Positions 3,449-51,907 of a stretch of 64,000 nt of DNA are shown piece by piece. A model generated the notes under the pieces. The model saw only the letters and a list, made by a program, of their open reading frames with translations. It searched no databases and had not been told where the DNA came from. Location: contig NZ_VLLL01000008.1 in the NCBI RefSeq assembly GCF_007994225.1, positions 97,695 through 161,694 on the forward strand, given 5' to 3'. A program made the translations under genes and the position numbers. The DNA is from Stackebrandtia albiflava (lineage in GTDB: Bacteria; Actinomycetota; Actinomycetes; Mycobacteriales; Micromonosporaceae). Position 1 is the first letter of the stretch; the number at the start of each line of letters is the position of its first letter.

Positions 3449-5548
3449 TCAGGTCCGTTTGCGGCTGCGGTACAGCAGCCAGAAGAAGTAGGGCGCGCCG
3501 ATGATCGCGGTCATGAGCCCGGCGGGCAACTGGTCGGGCGCGATGACGGTGCGGCCCACCACGTCCGACACCACGACGAGGATGCCGCCCAGCAGCGCCG
3601 CGACCGGGATGACCCGGGCGTGTCGCCGCCCGACGAGCATCCGGGCCGCGTGTGGGGCGACGAGCCCGACGAACCCGATCACGCCGATGCCGGCGACCGC
3701 GACCGCCGTCAACAGCACCGCGCACGTCAGCAGCGCCAACCGTGCCGACGCCACCCGTACGCCCAGCAGCCGGGGCGTGTCCTCGTCGATGGACAGCAGG
3801 TCGAGCCGGCGATGCGCGAACATCACCAGCGGCACCAGCACCGCGCAGCCGATGGACAGCGGGATGAGGTGTTCGAAGGTGCGGCCGTAGGTGGACCCGG
3901 ACAGCCAGGTGAGCGCCTTGGCGGCGTTGAACGGGTCGGTGGCGACGATCAGCAGCGTCACGAACGCGGCGGTCCCGTACGACACGCCGACACCGATGAG
4001 CACCAACCGGTCGGTGGCGAACCCGCTGCGCGCCGCGAGCCCGAACACCACCAGTGCCGCTGCCAGGGCGCCCGCGCCCGCGGCGGCGGCCAGCGCCCAG
4101 AAACCGGCGTGCGGGATCAGTGTCACGACGATGACCGCGGTGACCGAGGCGCCGCCGGAGATGCCGATGATGGCGGGTTCGGCGAGCGGGTTGCGGGTGA
4201 CGCCCTGGATGGCGGTGCCGGCGACCGCGAGGGCGACACCGGCCAGCAGGGCGGCCAGGACACGTGGCGCGCGGGTGTCCATGACGGCGCTGACGATCTG
4301 GCCGGCCTGCCCGGTCAGCCAGTTCCAGAGGTCTCCGGTGAGCAGTCCCATGTCGCCGATGAGCAGTGAGCCGACGACGGTGGCGACGAGGACGACGGCG
4401 AGGACCGCCGTGACGATGCCGGGGTGGCGGACGCCGATGCCCCGCACGTCGAGTTCACCGTGGCTGGTTCCGGCCCGGTCGGCGCGCAGCCGGAACGCGA
4501 GCGCGATGAGGAACACCGCGCCCAGGATCGACGTCATGATGCCGGTCGGGACCTGGGTGGCGGTCTGGGCGCCCAGGATCGCGCGCAGCACGATGTCGGC
4601 GGCCAGGAGGAGAGCGATCGCGGCCAGGCCGGTGACCGGCAGCAGCGCCCGGTGCCGGTGGAGGCCGGGGATCCTGGGCGCGACGAGCCGGGTGAGGGCG
4701 GGCGCGGCGAGTCCGATGAACCCGATCGGTCCGGTGAGCGCGACGGCGGCGGTCGACAGCAGCACCGACATCAGCAGCACCCACAGTTGGGTCTGCCGGA
4801 CCGGTACGCCCAGCGAACGCGCCTCGTCGTCGCCGAGCATCAGCAGGTCGAGGCGGCGGCTCATCAGCATCAGCAGCGCGAAACCGATCACCACGATCGG
4901 TGCCAGTGTCACGATCCCGTCGAAACCGTTGACGCCGAGGGTTCCGGCGGCCCACGCGTGGGCGCCGCGCGACTCGAACGGGAACAGGATCATCAGTCCC
5001 CGGGTGAGCGCGGTGACGGCGAGGGCGACCGCGGATCCGCCCAGGACCAGTCGCACGGTCCCGTACTCGGTGCCGGCCAGTGCCAGGACCAGGGCGGCGG
5101 CGGCGAGACCTCCGGTGAAGGCCAGCCCGAGGTCACCGAGGAACGGTCCCTGGACGCCCAGCGCGGCCCCGCACACCAGTGCCAGGTGGGCGCCGGCGTT
5201 GACGGCGAGCGTGTCGGGCGACGCCAGCGGGTTGCGCGAGATCGACTGCATGACGGTGCCGGCGACACCGAGCGCGATGCCGACGACCGCGGCGGCGGCC
5301 AGCCGGGGCAGGCGGGAGTCGATGACGACGGCGGCGGCCCGGTCGTCGGCGGTGCCGGTCAGCCACGCCCAGATGTCGGCGAAGCCGACGTCGGCGGTGC
5401 CCTGCGTGATGTGCAGGCACGCCAGGAGCGCGATCACGGCGAGGAGCACGACGACGACACCGGTGAGCGCGGCGATCCGCACCGGGGCGGGTGCGGCCGG
5501 TTCGGCGGTGGTGCCGGGGGCGTCGGGTGGGGTGCGGGTGAGGGTCAC
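3449..5548 (-). CDS. Iron-siderophore ABC permease, two fused FecCD units (699 aa)
   Basis: A FhuB-like membrane component of a siderophore importer. Two homologous FecCD halves of about 330 residues are fused. Each contains the family box N-P-L-A-x-P (SRNPLASPDTL in the first half, TRNPLAEPAIIG in the second) and the coupling-helix motif (GPIGFIGLAAPALTR and GVIGFVGLVAPHAAR). About 18-20 hydrophobic segments are expected. A single polypeptide replaces the usual two permeases, so no second permease gene is needed. It is the last gene of the minus-strand operon ATPase - binding protein - permease, 79 bases after the binding-protein stop. A strong hairpin lies in that gap. The substrate is inferred only from family and the upstream iron box. 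Confidence 0.95.
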   Translation of the reverse strand: MTLTRTPPDAPGTTAEPAAPAPVRIAALTGVVVVLLAVIALLACLHITQGTADVGFADIWAWLTGTADDRAAAVVIDSRLPRLAAAAVVGIALGVAGTVMQSISRNPLASPDTLAVNAGAHLALVCGAALGVQGPFLGDLGLAFTGGLAAAALVLALAGTEYGTVRLVLGGSAVALAVTALTRGLMILFPFESRGAHAWAAGTLGVNGFDGIVTLAPIVVIGFALLMLMSRRLDLLMLGDDEARSLGVPVRQTQLWVLLMSVLLSTAAVALTGPIGFIGLAAPALTRLVAPRIPGLHRHRALLPVTGLAAIALLLAADIVLRAILGAQTATQVPTGIMTSILGAVFLIALAFRLRADRAGTSHGELDVRGIGVRHPGIVTAVLAVVLVATVVGSLLIGDMGLLTGDLWNWLTGQAGQIVSAVMDTRAPRVLAALLAGVALAVAGTAIQGVTRNPLAEPAIIGISGGASVTAVIVVTLIPHAGFWALAAAAGAGALAAALVVFGLAARSGFATDRLVLIGVGVSYGTAAFVTLLIVATDPFNAAKALTWLSGSTYGRTFEHLIPLSIGCAVLVPLVMFAHRRLDLLSIDEDTPRLLGVRVASARLALLTCAVLLTAVAVAGIGVIGFVGLVAPHAARMLVGRRHARVIPVAALLGGILVVVSDVVGRTVIAPDQLPAGLMTAIIGAPYFFWLLYRSRKRT

Positions 5549-7605: not shown

Positions 7606-7790
7606 TTCCGCTTGGTCCCCGCCGGGTGGCTCATCCCTTCCGCTTGGTCCCCGCCGTTGCGCGCTCGGTCCGCGTGAGAACGGCACGGAAAGCGCTATAC
7701 CGGTACGAATCGGGCGAAGACTCCAGACCTGGCGGGGACCAAGCGGAACGGGAGATGGACCAAGTGCAACGGGGCGGGGACCAAGCGGAA
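7606..7790. repeat. 21-bp CTTGGTCC array, locus A (direct copies facing inverted copies)
   Basis: Copies of CTTGGTCC start at 7611 and 7643, with a degenerate CTCGGTCC at 7664. Inverted copies GGACCAAG start at 7736, 7757 and 7778, exactly 21 bases apart; 7643 to 7664 is also 21. An 18-base word (TTCCGCTTGGTCCCCGCC at 7606-7623 and 7638-7655) is perfectly complementary to 7731-7748 and 7773-7790, so a transcript or cruciform could form 18-bp stems. The arms are separated by a core of about 64 bp (7672-7735) that is less GC rich. The array fills most of the space between the methyltransferase stop and the siderophore promoter. It has no convincing coding content. Locus B at 46.85-47.09 kb has the same design. 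Function unknown. Confidence 0.85.
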
Positions 7791-45711: not shown

Positions 45712-46172
45712 GGATACAACCCCAGTTCCTGAGTGAGTTCGCCCAGGTCGTCAGCTGCTTTTCTCCGCGTGGCGTCATCTTTGCGTTGGTACTCCTGTAG
45801 GTCGGCGAGCCTGACCCGTCGGTGTCTTCCGACTTTGCGATGCGGGATATCACCGGAGTCGAGCAGGCCGATGAGGTAGGGGCGTGACACGTTCAGCAGG
45901 TTGGCGGCTTGCTGCGTGGTCAGTTCGGCGTGGGAAGGGACGATGGATACACCTTCGCCCTCTGCTAGCTGGGCCAGGATCTTCGCGAACATCACCACGG
46001 CTTGCCTAGGTAGGACGAGCGACGGTTCGCCGTGTTCCATCTTCACTTCGATGGTGTCGGGCTTCTCGGGATGCCGGTCCAGGTAATCACGAATACGACG
46101 AGAAGCCCGTTCAGCGATTTCCGTCGGTACTGAGCCTGCCGGTACTGAACCGAGTGTCTTGTGTTTGGGCAT
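45708..46172 (-). CDS. Antitoxin with excisionase-type HTH (154 aa)
   Basis: The C-terminal half holds a MerR/excisionase-type helix-turn-helix: ELTTQQAANLLNVSRPYLIGLLDSGDIPHRKVGRHRRVRLADL. The N-terminal half is a helical segment that probably binds the toxin. The start ATG has a perfect AGGAGG about seven bases upstream. It should repress its own promoter; three tandem 9-bp words lie just upstream. It precedes the PIN toxin and overlaps it by four bases, the usual order. Confidence 0.9.
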   Translation of the reverse strand: MPKHKTLGSVPAGSVPTEIAERASRRIRDYLDRHPEKPDTIEVKMEHGEPSLVLPRQAVVMFAKILAQLAEGEGVSIVPSHAELTTQQAANLLNVSRPYLIGLLDSGDIPHRKVGRHRRVRLADLQEYQRKDDATRRKAADDLGELTQELGLYP

Positions 46173-46190
46173 AACACACCTCCTATAAGA

Positions 46191-46217
46191 GTATTCGCAG
46201 TAATCGCAATAAACGCA
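46191..46217. promoter_or_regulatory. Three tandem 9-bp operator repeats upstream of the antitoxin
   Basis: GTATTCGCA (46191-46199), GTAATCGCA (46200-46208) and ATAAACGCA (46209-46217) follow each other without gaps, 19 bases upstream of the antitoxin ATG. They form an AT-rich island. Direct repeats at near one-turn spacing fit an excisionase-type HTH protein that binds as a cooperative filament. Confidence 0.6.
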
Positions 46218-46360
46218 TCATACGTTGGGATGATCTTTGGCGTGGTGAGTTGACGTCTGTGACGTGAGGTGTTTCTAGACTTGGCGAGCGTGGGTGCTGG
46301 AGTGGCGCCGCGTCGGACATCGTGGCCTGGTTGTTCGGCGCGGCGCGAGCGCTGCGACCG

Positions 46361-46723
46361 CTACCAGGCGGGGAGGGTGTGGCACCCCGGTTGGGGGCGG
46401 TATGGCGTAGCAGCCGGCCGGGAGACTTGCTGTACCGCTCGGGTGGCCCGGTGTAGTGCGCGGGTGTAGGCGGGGCGGTGTCTGCCTTTGGGTCGGTGTG
46501 GTGCTCTCGGGTAGACGACTTTGGAGAGCGCGGACAGGTAGTCGGTGGCCCAGAGGTAGGGGGCGCAGCCTCTTGTGCGGTGCCAGTGTTGGCGGCATTC
46601 GGTGCAGTGGCGTCGGAAGCCGTGTCGGGCTTGGCGTCTGCCGGGTGTGTGTAGTGCGCGGATGCGTTCGGCGCGGGCGATCTGTGTGGTCTGTTGGTTA
46701 CTGGTTATGCTGCACCATGACAT
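46361..46723 (-). CDS. Hypothetical basic protein with Cys/His cluster (120 aa)
   Basis: I do not recognise the family. The ATG has AAGGAG about nine bases upstream. The protein is strongly basic and holds RRHCTECRQHWHRTRGCAPYLWATDYL (residues about 37-63, given as separate words: C-T-E-C, H-W-H, R-G-C), which could bind zinc. The C-terminal half is Arg/Pro/His-rich. The leader region abuts the 21-bp repeat array of locus B. Real coding is likely but not certain. Confidence 0.5.
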   Translation of the reverse strand: MSWCSITSNQQTTQIARAERIRALHTPGRRQARHGFRRHCTECRQHWHRTRGCAPYLWATDYLSALSKVVYPRAPHRPKGRHRPAYTRALHRATRAVQQVSRPAATPYRPQPGCHTLPAW

Positions 46724-46852
46724 GGCGAGAACTCCTTGCTTCTCGTCCGTGTGGCGGCCCGGCTGTTGGCGCAGCCTGGTCGCCGTTTTCGTGTACGTGG
46801 GTGTCGTGCGGTGTGGCGGTGGCGTTCCGCGCTGTGGCTCTGGGGGAGTCCG

Positions 46853-47093
46853 CTTGGTCCTCGCCCGGTGCCGCTTGGTCCCCGCCCGGCTGCTCTTGGT
46901 CCTCGTCGGCTTGGTCCTCTTCCGGTTCCGCTTGGTCCTGCTCCGGTGGACGGACCGCGACCGTTATGCGTGGTTTACGCCTATTTGCGCCCACTTGGCG
47001 AGGACCAAGCACGACTTGACGTGGACCAAGCCCGATCTAACGGGGACCAAGTGCGACGTGGCGTGGACCAAGTGCGACTTGGCGGGGACCAAG
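46853..47093. repeat. 21-bp CTTGGTCC array, locus B (5 direct facing 5 inverted copies)
   Basis: CTTGGTCC starts at 46853, 46874, 46895, 46910 and 46931 (spacings 21, 21, 15, 21). Inverted copies GGACCAAG start at 47002, 47023, 47044, 47065 and 47086 (all 21). The two arms face each other across a core of 63 bp (46939-47001). The bases between the octamers are partly conserved: a C-G-C-C word follows most direct copies. The 16-mer CCGCTTGGTCCCCGCC at 46871-46886 is also in locus A. The 21-bp period keeps any reading frame in step, so heptad peptides with D-Q-A/V appear on either strand. The same symmetry on both strands points to a DNA- or RNA-level element. Function unknown. Confidence 0.88.
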
Positions 47094-47108
47094 TGGGTTG
47101 GGTCGGGT

Positions 47109-47501
47109 TCAGCTGTCGCAGGCGCGCCAGGTGACGGTGGTGGTCGGGTGGTCGTGTTGCCAGGTGGTGAGTGCTTCGGTGGCGGGTTGTCGTGGTTCTT
47201 CGACGGTCTCGGGCGGGTTTGGCTGTTGTTCGGGTGCGGCGGTTTCGGGCGGTGGTTGGTGTTGCCGCGTGTGTGCCGCGAGCGCGTCGGCGTTGCGTTG
47301 GTGTAGTTCTTCGGTGAGTGCGGCGGCGATGCGTTGGCGTGCGGTGGATGTCAAGGCGTTGTCGTGGGTGCGGCGGTCCCAGATCGCCTCGTGGCGCAGG
47401 ATGTCGTCTCGTGTGAACCGGTGTCCGCAGACTTGGGCGTCGCCGTAGGAGTCGATCCAGTCCACATCTGCGGGCGTCACGACCGGTGGTCTGGCGGTCA
47501 T
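47109..47501 (-). CDS. Hypothetical protein (130 aa)
   Basis: Unrecognised. It begins MTARPPVVTPADVDWIDSYG and has a VCGHRFTRDDILRHEAIWDRR segment. A helical middle follows (ARQRIAAALTEELHQRNADALAAH), then a Pro/Gln-rich linker and a short WQHDHPTTTVTWRACDS tail. The ATG overlaps the upstream gene's stop by four bases, so it is the second gene of a two-gene unit. Located just beyond repeat locus B. Confidence 0.65.
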   Translation of the reverse strand: MTARPPVVTPADVDWIDSYGDAQVCGHRFTRDDILRHEAIWDRRTHDNALTSTARQRIAAALTEELHQRNADALAAHTRQHQPPPETAAPEQQPNPPETVEEPRQPATEALTTWQHDHPTTTVTWRACDS

Positions 47502-48382
47502 CGCTCCACCCCGGGCTTGCGGTCGTGCGGCGGTCGGCCCGACGTCGCCGGTGGTGTTGCCGCCGGGCGGGACGCGCTGTCCGGTGCCGCCTCGGTCCCG
47601 GGTGTCGTCTGAGCGACGGGGGATGGTGTCGGGGCCGGTGGTGGGTCGGCGATCACTGGCGTGCCGGATTCCCCCTCCGGTTCGGTGGTCACGGCTGGGG
47701 GTGTGATCACTGATTCCGATGTGGACTCATGAACCGGCTGTGCGGTGGGTTCGTCGGCGGAGGCCGCCTCGCGTTCGGGTGTGATGTGGTGGTCGCCGTG
47801 GTGGTACGGCGAGAGCGTGCAACCCGGTTCGGGGCAGTACAGGGTGAGGAAGCTGGTGGACCTGGCCGCGTCGAAGATCCCCGCCGATTCGGCGAGCATT
47901 CCTGGCACGGTGTCTTGCAGGCAGGCCAGGATGTCGAGTGCGCGTTGCCGGGCGTCGGCTAGGCCGAGGGCGGCGAACGGTACCGCCATCAGGTAGATGT
48001 CGATGTCTTGGGCGGCGGCTTTGGCCTCGGCTTCGGTGAGTAGGTCGGGGTCGCGTTCCGGGTCGAGCCACACCAGGTACATGTCCGGTAGCGGCATCCG
48101 GGCGTGTGCGGAGTCCACGGTGGTGAACCACCCGAACGGGTGCCCGTCCTTGGCCAGGACCACGGCGGTGCCGTCGGGGTTCTCCACCCCGTGAATGATC
48201 AGGCCCGTGTCGACCCGCTCTTCGGTGACGCGGGTCTGCACGAACGCGAACCGCCTGGTCCGGGCCGCGCGTGCCACCGCGGTGAGTACCACGTTGACGT
48301 GCGGGTCGGGGTGAACGGGTGCCGGTGGTGCCGGGTCGGCACCGGGTATCAGGATCTCGTAGCTACACGAACGAATCGCCAT
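47498..48382 (-). CDS. Hypothetical protein with Pro/Thr-rich tail (294 aa)
   Basis: Unrecognised. Residues about 1-190 look globular (MAIRSCSYEILIPGADP..., GWFTTVDSAHARMPLPDMYLVWLDPE, DIDIYLMAVPFAALGLADARQ). A short CPEPGCTLSPYHHGDHH motif follows, with two Cys and four His, a likely zinc knuckle. The last 90 residues are a disordered Pro/Thr/Ala/Glu tail. It is the first gene of a pair with the 130-residue protein (ATGA overlap). The start is the ATG giving MAIRSCSY. Confidence 0.7.
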   Translation of the reverse strand: MAIRSCSYEILIPGADPAPPAPVHPDPHVNVVLTAVARAARTRRFAFVQTRVTEERVDTGLIIHGVENPDGTAVVLAKDGHPFGWFTTVDSAHARMPLPDMYLVWLDPERDPDLLTEAEAKAAAQDIDIYLMAVPFAALGLADARQRALDILACLQDTVPGMLAESAGIFDAARSTSFLTLYCPEPGCTLSPYHHGDHHITPEREAASADEPTAQPVHESTSESVITPPAVTTEPEGESGTPVIADPPPAPTPSPVAQTTPGTEAAPDSASRPAATPPATSGRPPHDRKPGVER

Positions 48383-48830
48383 GACGGTGTACCCCCAGAG
48401 GAATCGGATCGAAGTCTGCTGTGTGTGGACGGACGCGGCGCGCTTCACGAATAGCCGAACCGCGGCCCGGATGTGCGGAACGGCCGATGCCTCGCTCGGA
48501 GTCCGGGAACGTGGATGCGGGAGCATCGGGCCGGGTGTTGAGGCCGACGGTGGGCGGGTACCCGTCGATGCGCTGCGGCCGTGCGGAGGGCACGACCAAG
48601 GCACCGGGCGGAATGAGTGCCCGCCCACCGGGCGCGGCGGCGTTGTCGGCGCAAGACCACCGGCGCGCTACGGGAAAGCGTGAGAAATGGGGCTCGGTAG
48701 GGTGGCGGGTGTCGGGACCGTCGAGTCAGCCCGTGACGGGCGATCCGGTGACGACACCTGGCCGCGATACGACCCGGTGTGACAGACTGTTGACCGCGCG
48801 AGCTCCTTTCGCGAGTTCCGTTAGTTGAAG

Positions 48831-48877
48831 GACCGGGGCGGGACTTAGGTCGCCAAACTTCAGGACCCGCCCCGGTC
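48831..48877 (+). terminator. 12-bp hairpin with pyrimidine tail, possible small-RNA end
   Basis: GACCGGGGCGGG (48831-48842) and CCCGCCCCGGTC (48866-48877) are perfect arms around a 23-base loop, followed by TTCTCCCT. No plus-strand gene ends nearby. The loop contains CTTCA (48858-48862), which can pair with TGAAG (48826-48830) just before the stem, so a pseudoknot is possible. This could be the 3' end of an unannotated RNA or a regulatory leader. Confidence 0.5.
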
Positions 48878-48947
48878 TTCTCCCTCCCCGCCACCGCCCG
48901 AAGACGGCAACTGGGGAAGCCTCCACAACCACTCAGATCACTCCAAG

Positions 48948-48976
48948 TTGCTGTAGCAACACGATTACGCTAGCAT
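48948..48976 (+). promoter_or_regulatory. Promoter candidate of the XRE/DUF397 operon
   Basis: TTGCTG (48948-48953), a 17-base spacer, then TAGCAT (48971-48976). The -35 lies inside the palindrome GTTGCTGTAGCAAC (48947-48960). A second palindrome, GTAATATTAC (48982-48991), lies at the expected start region. Both are candidate binding sites for the XRE protein itself. Confidence 0.55.
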
Positions 48977-49045
48977 GGCTTGTAATATTACGCAATAGCG
49001 GTCCTGCATGCCGATGACGGTCCGCTACCACCATGAGGGGCGCTC

Positions 49046-49906
49046 ATGTCGAAGAATCGTTCTCTGTCGCTGCGGAACCAGTGGTTGGGTGAGCGTTTGA
49101 AGGCTGCTCGAGTTGCTGCGGGTCTCACATTGAAGGCCGCGGGAGAGCAGCTGAATCTCACCGATGCCACTTTGAGTCGCTTCGAGAAGGGCACCGTGAG
49201 AGTGCGGCACCCGTATGTCAAGGAGATGATCCACCTCTATGGAGTGTCTGATCCCCTGGAACGTGACGCGCTACTCCAGTTCAATAAGGACTCCTGGCGG
49301 AAGGACTGGTGGGACGGTGACACCACCGACATAGACCGCGGCTTTCTCGACTACACCTGGCTTGAGGCTCGATCGAAGCGCATCCGCATATTCTCGCCTC
49401 TCCTGATCCACGGTCTCCTGCAATCGCCGGGCTACATCCGAGCGGTGGTCGATCATGCCACTGAAGCGGAGATAACCGCCCAACACGTAGACCGACAGCT
49501 CGAGATTCGCCTCGCGCGACAGAAGACCGTTTTTCAAGATCGAACGACACCGTTGTCGGTGGTGCTCGAGGAAGCGGCCATTCTTCGGATGGTCGGAGGA
49601 CGTACCGTCATGTGCGAGCAGCTTGAACACCTGGTGGCCGTCTCGGAACTGCCACACATCCAGATTCGCCTCCTCCCGATCACCGCAGAGTGGGACGCGG
49701 GCTATGCGGGGCCGTTTTCGTACTTCGAGATGCCCGACCCGTTTCCTGAGGTCGCCTACATCGAGAATCTCGCTGGCCGTACCTTCCTTGAAGAGAGCGG
49801 CAAGGTCTCAAGAATTCGGCAGGTGCACGCCGCTTTGGTACGGTCGGCATTGAGCCCCACCAAGACACGGAACTTCATCCGTGATGCATTGAAGGAACTT
49901 CAATGA
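49046..49906 (+). CDS. XRE-family regulator with DUF5753 domain (286 aa)
   Basis: The N-terminal helix-turn-helix (residues about 10-70) reads LGERLKAARVAAGLTLKAAGEQL and DATLSRFEKGTVRVR. The remainder is the DUF5753 (Scr1-type) domain: IRIFSPLLIHGLLQSPGYIRAVV, LSVVLEEAAILRMVGG, LPHIQIRLLPITAEWDAGYAGPFSYFE. In actinomycetes this type always pairs with a small DUF397 protein, as here, and acts like an antitoxin-like or developmental regulator. The start ATG has GAGGGG about six bases upstream. Confidence 0.93.
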   Translation: MSKNRSLSLRNQWLGERLKAARVAAGLTLKAAGEQLNLTDATLSRFEKGTVRVRHPYVKEMIHLYGVSDPLERDALLQFNKDSWRKDWWDGDTTDIDRGFLDYTWLEARSKRIRIFSPLLIHGLLQSPGYIRAVVDHATEAEITAQHVDRQLEIRLARQKTVFQDRTTPLSVVLEEAAILRMVGGRTVMCEQLEHLVAVSELPHIQIRLLPITAEWDAGYAGPFSYFEMPDPFPEVAYIENLAGRTFLEESGKVSRIRQVHAALVRSALSPTKTRNFIRDALKELQ

Positions 49907-50196
49907 TCGCATCCCAGACCATGCCGCACATTGAGCAGGACCCTCCTAATTGGCTGATTTGGCGCAAATCCTCACGTAGCGACAGTGGCCCCGGGCAGTG
50001 CGTGGAGATCGCTGCATGGCGCAGCAGCGCCCGAAGCGCCAGCGGCGGAAACGCCAACTGTGTCGAGGTCGGTGCAGCAGCGGACACGGTTGCCGTACGC
50101 GACTCGAAACGTCCCACCGGTCCGGTCCTCACCGCCCCGGCCACCGACTGGAAGGCCATGCTCACAGCCATCAAACACGGCCACCTGGACGCATGA
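49903..50196 (+). CDS. DUF397 domain protein (97 aa)
   Basis: Small partner of the upstream XRE/DUF5753 regulator; the ATG overlaps its stop (ATGA). The DUF397 hallmark is clear: WRKSSRSDSGPGQCVEIAAW, NCVEVGAAADTVAVRDSKRPTGPVL, then DWKAMLTAIKHG. Family members (for example the WhiJ-linked proteins of Streptomyces) bind or modulate the regulator; some pairs behave like toxin-antitoxin systems. Confidence 0.95.
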   Translation: MIASQTMPHIEQDPPNWLIWRKSSRSDSGPGQCVEIAAWRSSARSASGGNANCVEVGAAADTVAVRDSKRPTGPVLTAPATDWKAMLTAIKHGHLDA

Positions 50197-50268
50197 TCGG
50201 TGGCTGATCTGAGCGGTGTGCGGATTCCGCATCGATCCGCACACCGCACCTAATCCGCAACGCAGGTG

Positions 50269-50712
50269 CTAGGCCTGGCTCCCCCACTGGTCAGCCAGCA
50301 TCGCAGCATCGGCGAGGTACTTGTCGAGATTCGAGCGCATGTGCTCAGACCGATATGTGATGCTGCGGATGATCGGATACGCTGCGAGAATCTGGTCGTC
50401 GTTGCTGACATCATCGAGTAGGTGGTCCTCGCCGTAGAATGCGCGCACCACCGCTTCGATGACCAGTGGTTTCACCGGGGGAGTGGCGTTGCGGAACTCG
50501 TACCGTAGTTCTTCGGCGAACCTGGCGATGGCTTCGCGGCTGTGATCGTTCGCGAAGTGGTGCTCGATCGCACCGGCCATGACCGCCGAGAGATAGATGA
50601 AGTAATCCCCGCGATCCTCACTGCTGATTCGCTCATCAAGCTCCATGGCGCGGTCGGCATCACCCAGCGCCAACGCCTTAACGGTGTCCTTGAAGAGTTG
50701 TTTACTTGCCAT
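50269..50712 (-). CDS. Hypothetical helical protein (147 aa)
   Basis: Unrecognised and all-helical by pattern: LFKDTVKALALGDADRAMELDERISS, DYFIYLSAVMAGAIEHHFAND, AIARFAEELRYEFRN, LVIEAVVRAFYGED. It resembles a small TPR-like or DUF-type bundle. Third gene of a minus-strand unit; it overlaps the upstream gene's end by 11 bases. It may be the soluble output or sensor of that unit. Confidence 0.75.
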   Translation of the reverse strand: MASKQLFKDTVKALALGDADRAMELDERISSEDRGDYFIYLSAVMAGAIEHHFANDHSREAIARFAEELRYEFRNATPPVKPLVIEAVVRAFYGEDHLLDDVSNDDQILAAYPIIRSITYRSEHMRSNLDKYLADAAMLADQWGSQA

Positions 50713-51421
50713 CGTTCCTCTTCCTGATCATCCGGGACACGGCCTCCACGGCGAACGCCGACAGCAGGATTGCGTTACTGACGATATCCACGGCTTGAAC
50801 ATCGCCGCTGCCCGGTCCGGATATGGACGGCTGCCCCTTGTCGGTGGCTACAGTGGCCTGCCCGTACTTGTGTGGATCGTGACTTGCGACCTGGCTGGTA
50901 CCGGACTTACTGAGATCCTTGCCTGTCTTCTGCAGGTCACCAGCCGCGCGAACGAATCGCCTGCCGAAACGCTGTAGGCGCGACTTGTCCTCTTCATCGC
51001 TGCCGGCCAGTTCCTGGCGAAACGGGTGAGTGGGCAGACCAGGCGCGTTGACGTCATCGCCGATATGCGCACTACCGCTGGAGACGGCGTCGGACTTGCC
51101 AGCTGATTCTCCGTTGCCCTGGTAGCCGCCGGTGCCGTTGCTGTACAGGCCGGTGATGGCGGACATGGCGATGAAGCGGCACTTCTCCAGATGCCCGTCA
51201 AGGTGTTCCGCCTCGCTCAACGCCTCACCCAGAAGTTCCACCGCCCGCATCGTCTCGGCACCGGCGGCGCTACCACCGATCCCCGCCGCGTCCAGACGGT
51301 CCAGCGCCTCCCCACCCGTGGCGACACTGCCGGCGACCCCGTCCCGCACCCGCCCCGCCGCATCACGCGCCGCAGCGATCAACGCCACCAGATCCCGGAC
51401 ACTCAGATTCCCACCGCTCAT
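50702..51421 (-). CDS. Hypothetical protein with C-terminal hydrophobic segment (239 aa)
   Basis: Unrecognised. The N-terminal 90 residues are a helical, WXG-like bundle (VRDLVALIAAARDAAGRVRDG ... AEHLDGHLEKCRFIAM). A Gly/Ser/Asn-rich linker of about 100 residues follows. Then comes a hydrophobic stretch IVSNAILLSAFAVEAVSRMI and a basic RKRNDGK tail that could anchor it in the membrane. Second gene of a three-gene unit; the ATG overlaps the upstream stop by four bases. Confidence 0.75.
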   Translation of the reverse strand: MSGGNLSVRDLVALIAAARDAAGRVRDGVAGSVATGGEALDRLDAAGIGGSAAGAETMRAVELLGEALSEAEHLDGHLEKCRFIAMSAITGLYSNGTGGYQGNGESAGKSDAVSSGSAHIGDDVNAPGLPTHPFRQELAGSDEEDKSRLQRFGRRFVRAAGDLQKTGKDLSKSGTSQVASHDPHKYGQATVATDKGQPSISGPGSGDVQAVDIVSNAILLSAFAVEAVSRMIRKRNDGK

Positions 51422-51675
51422 ATCGTCCTGGCCAACTCCGCAGCCGCCCGCGCCTCCTCAAGCTTCGCCACCAGCGCCCTCTGCAACCCCAACGCCGCCT
51501 CCAACTCCCGCCGACACAGATCCACCTGCGCCGCCACCCCCTCCACCGCCAAGCCCATCAACACACCCGTCAACTGCTCCGCCATCGCCCGCGACGCCTC
51601 CACCTGCCCCGCCAACCCGTTCCCCGCAGCGACATCACCATCGATCGACGCCACCAGATCATCAATAGACGCCAT
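51418..51675 (-). CDS. Hypothetical coiled-coil protein (85 aa)
   Basis: Short, fully helical protein (MASIDDLVASIDGDVAAGNG ... CRRELEAALGLQRALVAKLEEARAAAELART) with coiled-coil periodicity. Size and composition resemble the small helical proteins found with type VII-like or DUF6244-type actinobacterial operons, but I cannot assign it. The start is the ATG giving MASIDDL. First gene of the three-gene unit, with four-base overlap to the next. Confidence 0.7.
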   Translation of the reverse strand: MASIDDLVASIDGDVAAGNGLAGQVEASRAMAEQLTGVLMGLAVEGVAAQVDLCRRELEAALGLQRALVAKLEEARAAAELARTI

Positions 51676-51907
51676 ACACCACAACACCTTCCACACAAGA
51701 GAAACCCGTCACCGACACCGTACAAACCACACGCCGCCCGTCGCAGCGGTAAGCCCCGAGAGCTGATGGGCAGCGGTATCGTCTCGGTAGCCGCTTCAAC
51801 CACGGCCACCCCGGCCCTACGACGTGGCGGGTCGGGTCGAGCCGGCCGTAACGCGTCGAAGTGGTCGACGGATCGCTCCCGGTCGTCGGTTGTGTCCCGC
51901 CGGACTG

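Follow-up and report, generated by a model that had tools for sequence, protein, structure and literature searches.

What are the two arrays of a short octamer that face each other at positions 46853-47093 of a 64-kb stretch of Stackebrandtia albiflava DNA (the window; contig C4:97695-161694 of a 5.55-Mb genome)? A first-pass annotation, made from the letters alone, had offered three readings: a landing array for a DNA-bending or partition-like protein, a mobile or replicative element in its own right, or an RNA with multiple pairing registers. We examined the layout of this element, its copies in the genome and in relatives, and its gene setting, and weighed these readings against each other.

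Two copies in the window

Start positions confirm the description of the element as five direct and five inverted octamers across a 63-bp core. The left array (46853-46938, minus strand) consists of five units that read GGACCAAG on the minus strand and CTTGGTCC on the plus strand; they start at 46853, 46874, 46895, 46910 and 46931 (spacings 21, 21, 15 and 21 bp). The right array (47002-47093, plus strand) has five GGACCAAG units, each 21 bp apart, starting at 47002, 47023, 47044, 47065 and 47086. The 63-bp core between them (46939-47001, minus strand) contains A/T islets ~10 bp apart and follows an asymmetric family consensus. Seven of the eight intervals are 21 bp, as expected from units described as 'nearly all exactly 21 bp apart'; because the eighth is 15 bp, not every unit lies on the same helical face, contrary to what had been claimed. 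In the oriented family alignment, where the best-scoring match to the model (G000:C4:144601-144727, minus) sets the orientation, the left array of this copy (copy B) is arm B and the right array arm A. The window holds 17 octamers compared to 1.9 expected, and 17 or more were reached in 0 of 100 shuffles.

A second locus already noted in the window (copy A, 7611-7785, no strand assigned) proved to be the same kind of element, with facing octamers (CTTGGTCC at 7611 and 7643; GGACCAAG at 7736, 7757 and 7778), a degenerate inner left octamer (CTCGGTCC at 7664) and a 64-bp core.

Copy B lies in a 5-kb segment (46442-51739) with a paralogue at C2:538 kb (L045:4591-9437), the two sharing stretches of 73-97% DNA identity (79% for the array-bearing one). 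Its broader setting (37161-63342) is an apparent defence island encoding a UvrD-like helicase, an SRA-HNH protein, an AAA ATPase, a DprA-like protein, a PIN protein with HTH_17, a helicase-PLD protein, a NERD-kinase and a Pgl/BREX-like DUF7008/Eco57I methylase.

A family of copies in the genome

Searching the genome for the octamer at 21-bp period, as had been proposed, revealed that the window element belongs to a family. The exact pair GGACCAAG-N13-GGACCAAG occurs 36 times in forward and 29 times in reverse orientation, compared to 0 for a reversed control pattern, and the facing pattern is found at 21 places with 40-70 bp between arrays and at 28 with 55-75 bp. A family model built from the 18 copies with 63-bp cores finds 41 places (E < 0.001, overlapping matches merged by hand), those 18 matching by construction; two weaker matches (E 0.012 and 0.31) were left out. 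Two or more exact octamers are present at 39 of the 41, of which 37 are two-sided and two one-sided (L039 and the first element at L051), while C1:1107768 and C2:37026 were found by the model only. Scanned without reference to the motif for facing 7-mer pairs at spacings of 14-42, 780 kb sampled from the genome yielded six places: five at a spacing of exactly 21, all within the octamer unit, and one chance place at 42. Single octamers number five in these 780 kb, compared to 12 in 400 kb of congener G003 and six in 400 kb of congener G004; with a maximal-order Markov expectation of 6.9 for the five singles, the case for avoidance of stray octamers is weak.

Copies are spread unevenly, with 11 in one stretch of 330 kb compared to 6.4 simulated (P 0.002), a distribution that by itself does not point to an architectural role, and C1 from 1.26 Mb to the contig end is free of model matches. 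The gene dnaA is at C2:77 kb; GC skew of genome samples was too noisy to assign chromosome position. No match with up to three mismatches was found to a dif pattern, and a looser scan of the fetched loci gave a dif-like sequence on C1 (L187:about 4050-4085, near 1.534 Mb) with four mismatches to an actinobacterial pattern. A parS-like scan of the fetched loci gave nothing decisive. At L059:4989-6240, two similar elements ~1.1 kb apart flank a weakly DUF559-like ORF (E 0.0008, below the Pfam cut-off), which suggests a local duplication.

Unit, arms and phased core

The unit consensus is GGCGGGGACCAAGCGC followed by ~5 variable bases, and is neither palindromic nor tagged with GTAG or CGTC. In 39 arrays there are 119 intervals between same-strand neighbouring octamers, with up to one mismatch allowed: 83 of 21 bp, 15 of 31-33, seven of 15 and two of 41, the other 12 being scattered and six of these exceeding 90 bp. 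The bases flanking the octamer in the 83 spacers of 21 bp are conserved as GGCGG-GGACCAAG-CGC, then ~5 loose positions. Unit number per side ranges from 0 to 7 (one mismatch allowed). The outer edge, CCG-CTTGGTCC, is conserved in inverted orientation at both ends (76 ends). Farther out there is no clear 21-bp peak indicative of decayed units, and the sole strong peak, at 9-10 bp, stems from the conserved edge; the 45-bp outer flanks are C-rich and G-poor on both sides (C 0.46-0.50, G 0.24-0.26).

Core length is 62-64 or 73-74 bp in 33 of the 37 two-sided arrays, the exceptions being L046 (52 bp), L058 (85), L060 (31) and L158 (34). The inner gap in the 32 copies counted is 63 bp (18), 62 (5), 64 (3), 73 (5) or 74 (1), three 73-bp pairs (two at L046, one at L060) and the 78-bp pairs, all with a nearer octamer in between, having been set aside; the L159 core is 64 bp. 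The 63- and 73-bp classes thus differ by about one helical turn. When oriented by iteration, the 18 cores of 63 bp show an asymmetric consensus with A/T islets approximately every 10 bp; pairwise identity averages 0.49 (best 0.79), and is 0.45 over the inner 38 bases compared to 0.26 expected from composition. When the first spacers of both arms are compared in 19 elements, 6.9 of 13 positions match within an element and 8.0 between elements; of 5,000 permuted arm pairings, 99.92% equal or exceed the true ones. The two arms of an element are hence of two kinds, A and B, since they match each other less than they match arms of different elements.

The ~10-bp A/T phasing of the core, which is absent from the first-pass annotation, has a best period of 9.7 in the mean core profile, above all 2,000 column permutations. 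Per-copy periodicity power (18 copies) is 5.79; shuffling these cores gives 1.44 (sd 0.28), with none of 300 shuffles as high, and genomic 63-mers give 1.31. With the latter as yardstick, also for the six longer cores, and with the unusually long or short cores of L046, L058, L060 and L158 kept apart, 29 of 32 copies lie above the 95th percentile and 22 above the 99th (4.75), including both window copies (B, 5.11; A, 5.83). The five 73-bp cores have a mean power of 7.04, compared to 1.50 when shuffled, and by eye contain one additional A/T islet. In A/T-rich columns the letters swap and the A/T class stays (column 44: 11 A, 7 T, 0 G/C), even if at mismatched sites the class is retained only modestly more often than composition predicts (0.412 compared to 0.335) and a wrongly oriented copy could contribute to such swaps. 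Predicted static curvature, calculated with wedge parameters, is 28 degrees, compared to 21.7 (sd 2.6) for shuffled cores and 17.7 (sd 9.5) for the genome; being only modestly raised, it suggests that anisotropic flexibility fits the cores better than a fixed bend. As the copies share ancestry, the periodicity is partly inherited and the copies are not independent events.

Restriction to one lineage

The search of relatives that had likewise been proposed found no match to the facing pattern in 59 of 60, and a single place, taken as chance, in the other (G051, same order). Among 250 genomes of the taxonomic family, the model matched four at E < 0.001, one being the source genome; the other three, from another genus, have weak single matches lacking facing arrays and were discarded. 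No facing arrays were seen in the 249 other genomes in this model search, whose strict filters kept 16 matches in the source genome, compared to 136 in the own-genome search, so that degenerate copies may have escaped it. From a collection of 84,980 species, possibly one without the records of the source genome, a stricter direct-repeat pattern retrieved two unrelated stretches (L068 and L069). Viral contigs gave 62 stretches with a 21-bp octamer pair, none with two facing pairs; 14 have more octamers nearby, several of them being simple tandem repeats, and two have a single octamer nearby in the opposite orientation. In 400 kb from each of two congeners, motif-blind searches for the same architecture built on another word turned up a single chance place in G003, at a spacing of 27, and nothing in G004; at the source rate, two to three would be expected per genome.

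Arrays were absent from all orthologous places checked, four in G003 and one in G002. At ~75% DNA identity, these places gave no clean empty-site alignment in the comparison that had been proposed. Among the papers listed from an open-access library, nothing relevant was found on the octamer sequence, Stackebrandtia or actinobacterial extragenic repeats. Within the genomes searched, the family is restricted to one lineage.

Location at gene 3' ends

Copies of the family are extragenic, at gene 3' ends, and beside unrelated genes. With our own gene caller applied to 33 loci, 36 of 37 arrays do not overlap any predicted gene, which runs counter to their being part of a conserved protein-coding gene, an outcome that the first-pass annotation had considered; at the sole exception (L055) one octamer is within the neighbouring gene. 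Both neighbours were called for 36 arrays, of which 16 lie between convergent, 19 between co-directional and one between divergent genes. Relative to 133 gaps >150 bp at the same loci, element-bearing gaps included, convergent settings are enriched (16/36 compared to 26/133, Fisher P 0.004) and divergent ones depleted (1/36 compared to 37/133, Fisher P 0.0006). Beside array B the caller missed weakly scoring genes, and the nearest ORFs there share their strand with the genes used. In the 19 co-directional cases, tallied by hand, the element is opposite to transcription in 12 and in the same direction in seven, without clear bias.

The 20 neighbouring proteins scanned have no common pathway, three being of DNA-repair type; among the families matched are Mfd, a release factor, tRNA synthetases, ATP-dependent DNA ligases, transporters and subtilases. 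At L042, L057 and L063, possibly by coincidence, the gene next to the element encodes an ATP-dependent DNA ligase in two cases and is mfd-like in one. At C2:930 kb (L051:4960-5859), a UDG-superfamily gene is flanked by a half element and a full element.

A putative site for DNA wrapping

The family consists of interspersed extragenic repeats of an actinobacterial lineage, outside the GTAG/CGTC classes of REP. Given facing arrays, their phasing, a phased core in most copies, a 3'-end location and unrelated neighbours where examined, we propose, at a probability of about one half, that these are lineage-specific extragenic sites where a nucleoprotein complex, putatively a DNA-wrapping one, assembles. 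A putative sequence-specific protein would bind cooperatively to the octamer units, which face inward from both sides and mostly recur every two helical turns; the DNA between the arrays would then bend or wrap along the ~10-bp phased A/T core, and at gene 3' ends the complex could act as a node of DNA architecture or topology, for example to constrain supercoils, to bring in a wrapping enzyme (gyrase, for one) or to bridge DNA. Protein binding, DNA wrapping and any topological effect are all inferred from sequence. A protein-DNA wrapping complex is favoured because of the two-turn spacings, the core classes one turn apart, the phasing of the core despite letter swaps and the conserved anchors; the 15-bp spacings, which break helical phase, count against it. 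The suggestion of a landing array for a DNA-bending protein is hence the best supported of the earlier ones, with a phased core in 29 of 32 copies and core classes differing by one turn, although the protein itself is only predicted. Positive supercoils gather at gene ends. A topological role is plausible but unproven, given the gene-end position and the published 10-bp phased gyrase motif (PMC6379681).

More tentatively, these may be DNA-wrapping stations of a new kind, where a dedicated lineage-specific protein on phased octamer arrays at both sides of a nucleosome-like core with 10-bp phasing would hold supercoils or organise loops at gene ends across one chromosome. There is a fair chance that the family is a new kind of architectural site. 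Its ~40 copies are natural replicates in which length and phase are apparently constrained to whole helical turns while letters drift, and they make it directly testable how DNA wrapping is assigned to particular sites in a bacterium.

Alternative readings

The main rival is a non-autonomous mobile origin, for which we see a lesser, though real, possibility. The element would be MITE-like, with each facing array offering a transposase several binding sites at one of two different ends (A or B); a lost or putative enzyme would mobilise it in trans, and the 3'-end location would reflect tolerated insertions. The dispersal of copies at unrelated sites, their apparent relatedness by descent (core pair identity as above), the two distinct arms, the conserved outer edge and the lack of clear orientation bias relative to transcription are all consistent with this, as is the absence of the L051 UDG-family gene, together with both flanking elements, from the orthologous place in G003 and G002. 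Against it, a side may have anything between 0 and 7 units; the octamers have been retained although the cores differ by half, a pattern unlike that of neutral relics, with the proviso that octamers were the search key; and no larger transposase-bearing copy was noticed in an unsystematic look at the loci. Moreover, the only Y1_Tnp match of the genome is partial (profile 69-121), three of four congeners having none and the fourth one. It belongs to a shortened IS200/IS605-like TnpA beside a 443-aa ORF, TnpB-like by eye (L234:48-1833, C1:1757 kb), and was thus rejected as a RAYT. The earlier suggestion of an independent mobile or replicative element may hold for the origin of the family. Mobility could also be how the proposed wrapping sites spread.

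An RNA-level element, that is, a bidirectional terminator or an mRNA-protecting hairpin for convergent genes, is unlikely. The convergent and 3'-end location would suit it, one strand of copy B folds very stably (-148.2 kcal/mol, z -10.2), and the C-rich, G-poor composition of the outer flanks is one that favours Rho-dependent termination. Selection for pairing would, however, make the arms of one element more complementary than arms of different elements, and the spacers behave in the opposite way (6.9 compared to 8.0 matches), which disfavours a selected RNA or cruciform hairpin. At L051 the left gene has, as read by eye, its own hairpin before the element; no U-tract (intrinsic) terminator was found in 46600-47300 of the window and no Rfam match in 46000-48000. 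The 'RNA with multiple pairing registers' is accordingly disfavoured. Insertion into palindromic terminators was also discarded, since the outer flanks of one element are no more complementary to each other (8.73) than those of different elements are (8.81, P 0.61).

Slighter still are the prospects that an FtsK-like DNA translocase loads at, or recognises, these sites through octamers akin to those of TraB/clt or KOPS. TraB of the Streptomyces plasmid pSVH1 does recognise repeated 8-bp motifs (PMC3583192), but symmetrical facing arrays have no net polarity, none of the 18 window proteins scanned is of the FtsK/TraB family, and the 41 copies are chromosomal, those examined adjoining unrelated, often housekeeping genes. 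A remnant of a repetitive protein-coding gene can be practically dismissed: several frames are open across the array, as in high-GC DNA, but the arrays are mirror images, 36 of 37 lack a predicted gene, and with cores of 62, 63, 64, 73 and 74 bp and spacings of 15, 21, 31, 32 and 41 bp one reading frame cannot be kept, so that spacing and context refute it.

Comparison with known systems

At each of the two unlike ends of Tn7, TnsB binds an inward-facing row of ~20-bp sites. Such multi-site transposon ends resemble the arrays here, in which, by contrast, there is no cargo, no transposase was seen, site number varies and the ends are undefined. The outer edges of the family, which share CCG-CTTGGTCC in inverted orientation, might be terminal inverted repeats like those of MITEs, but unit number varies and the ends are undefined. 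The clt loci of Streptomyces conjugative plasmids also have repeated short motifs, bound by multimers (PMC3583192), whereas the family here is chromosomal, with ~40 symmetrical copies in two-turn phase, and no tra gene is among the 18 window proteins scanned.

Strong gyrase sites are another comparison. In the sections of PMC6379681 consulted, the G/C content of the E. coli gyrase motif varies with a phased 10-bp period, and some BIME-2 elements, which lie between genes, are bound by gyrase. Phased variation of ~10 bp, judged in our cores by periodicity power, is common to both; octamer arrays, a feature of the family here, are not described for them in those sections.

The closest kind is REP/BIME. 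According to PMC3733652, these are interspersed, uneven among species, often paired in opposed orientations and mostly located between convergent or co-directional genes, an extragenic setting that they share with our family (16 + 19 of 36). The word 'Actinobacteria' does not occur in the text of that paper. The REP/BIME unit is a palindrome of 20-40 bp tagged GTAG or CGTC, in contrast to a non-palindromic 21-mer without such tags here, and the GTAG type has a dedicated RAYT (Y1_Tnp) transposase, the CGTC type having none, whereas no REP transposase was found here. A phased core, some 63 or 73 bp in length, further distinguishes this family, which on the best reading is BIME-like in position, but not a REP.
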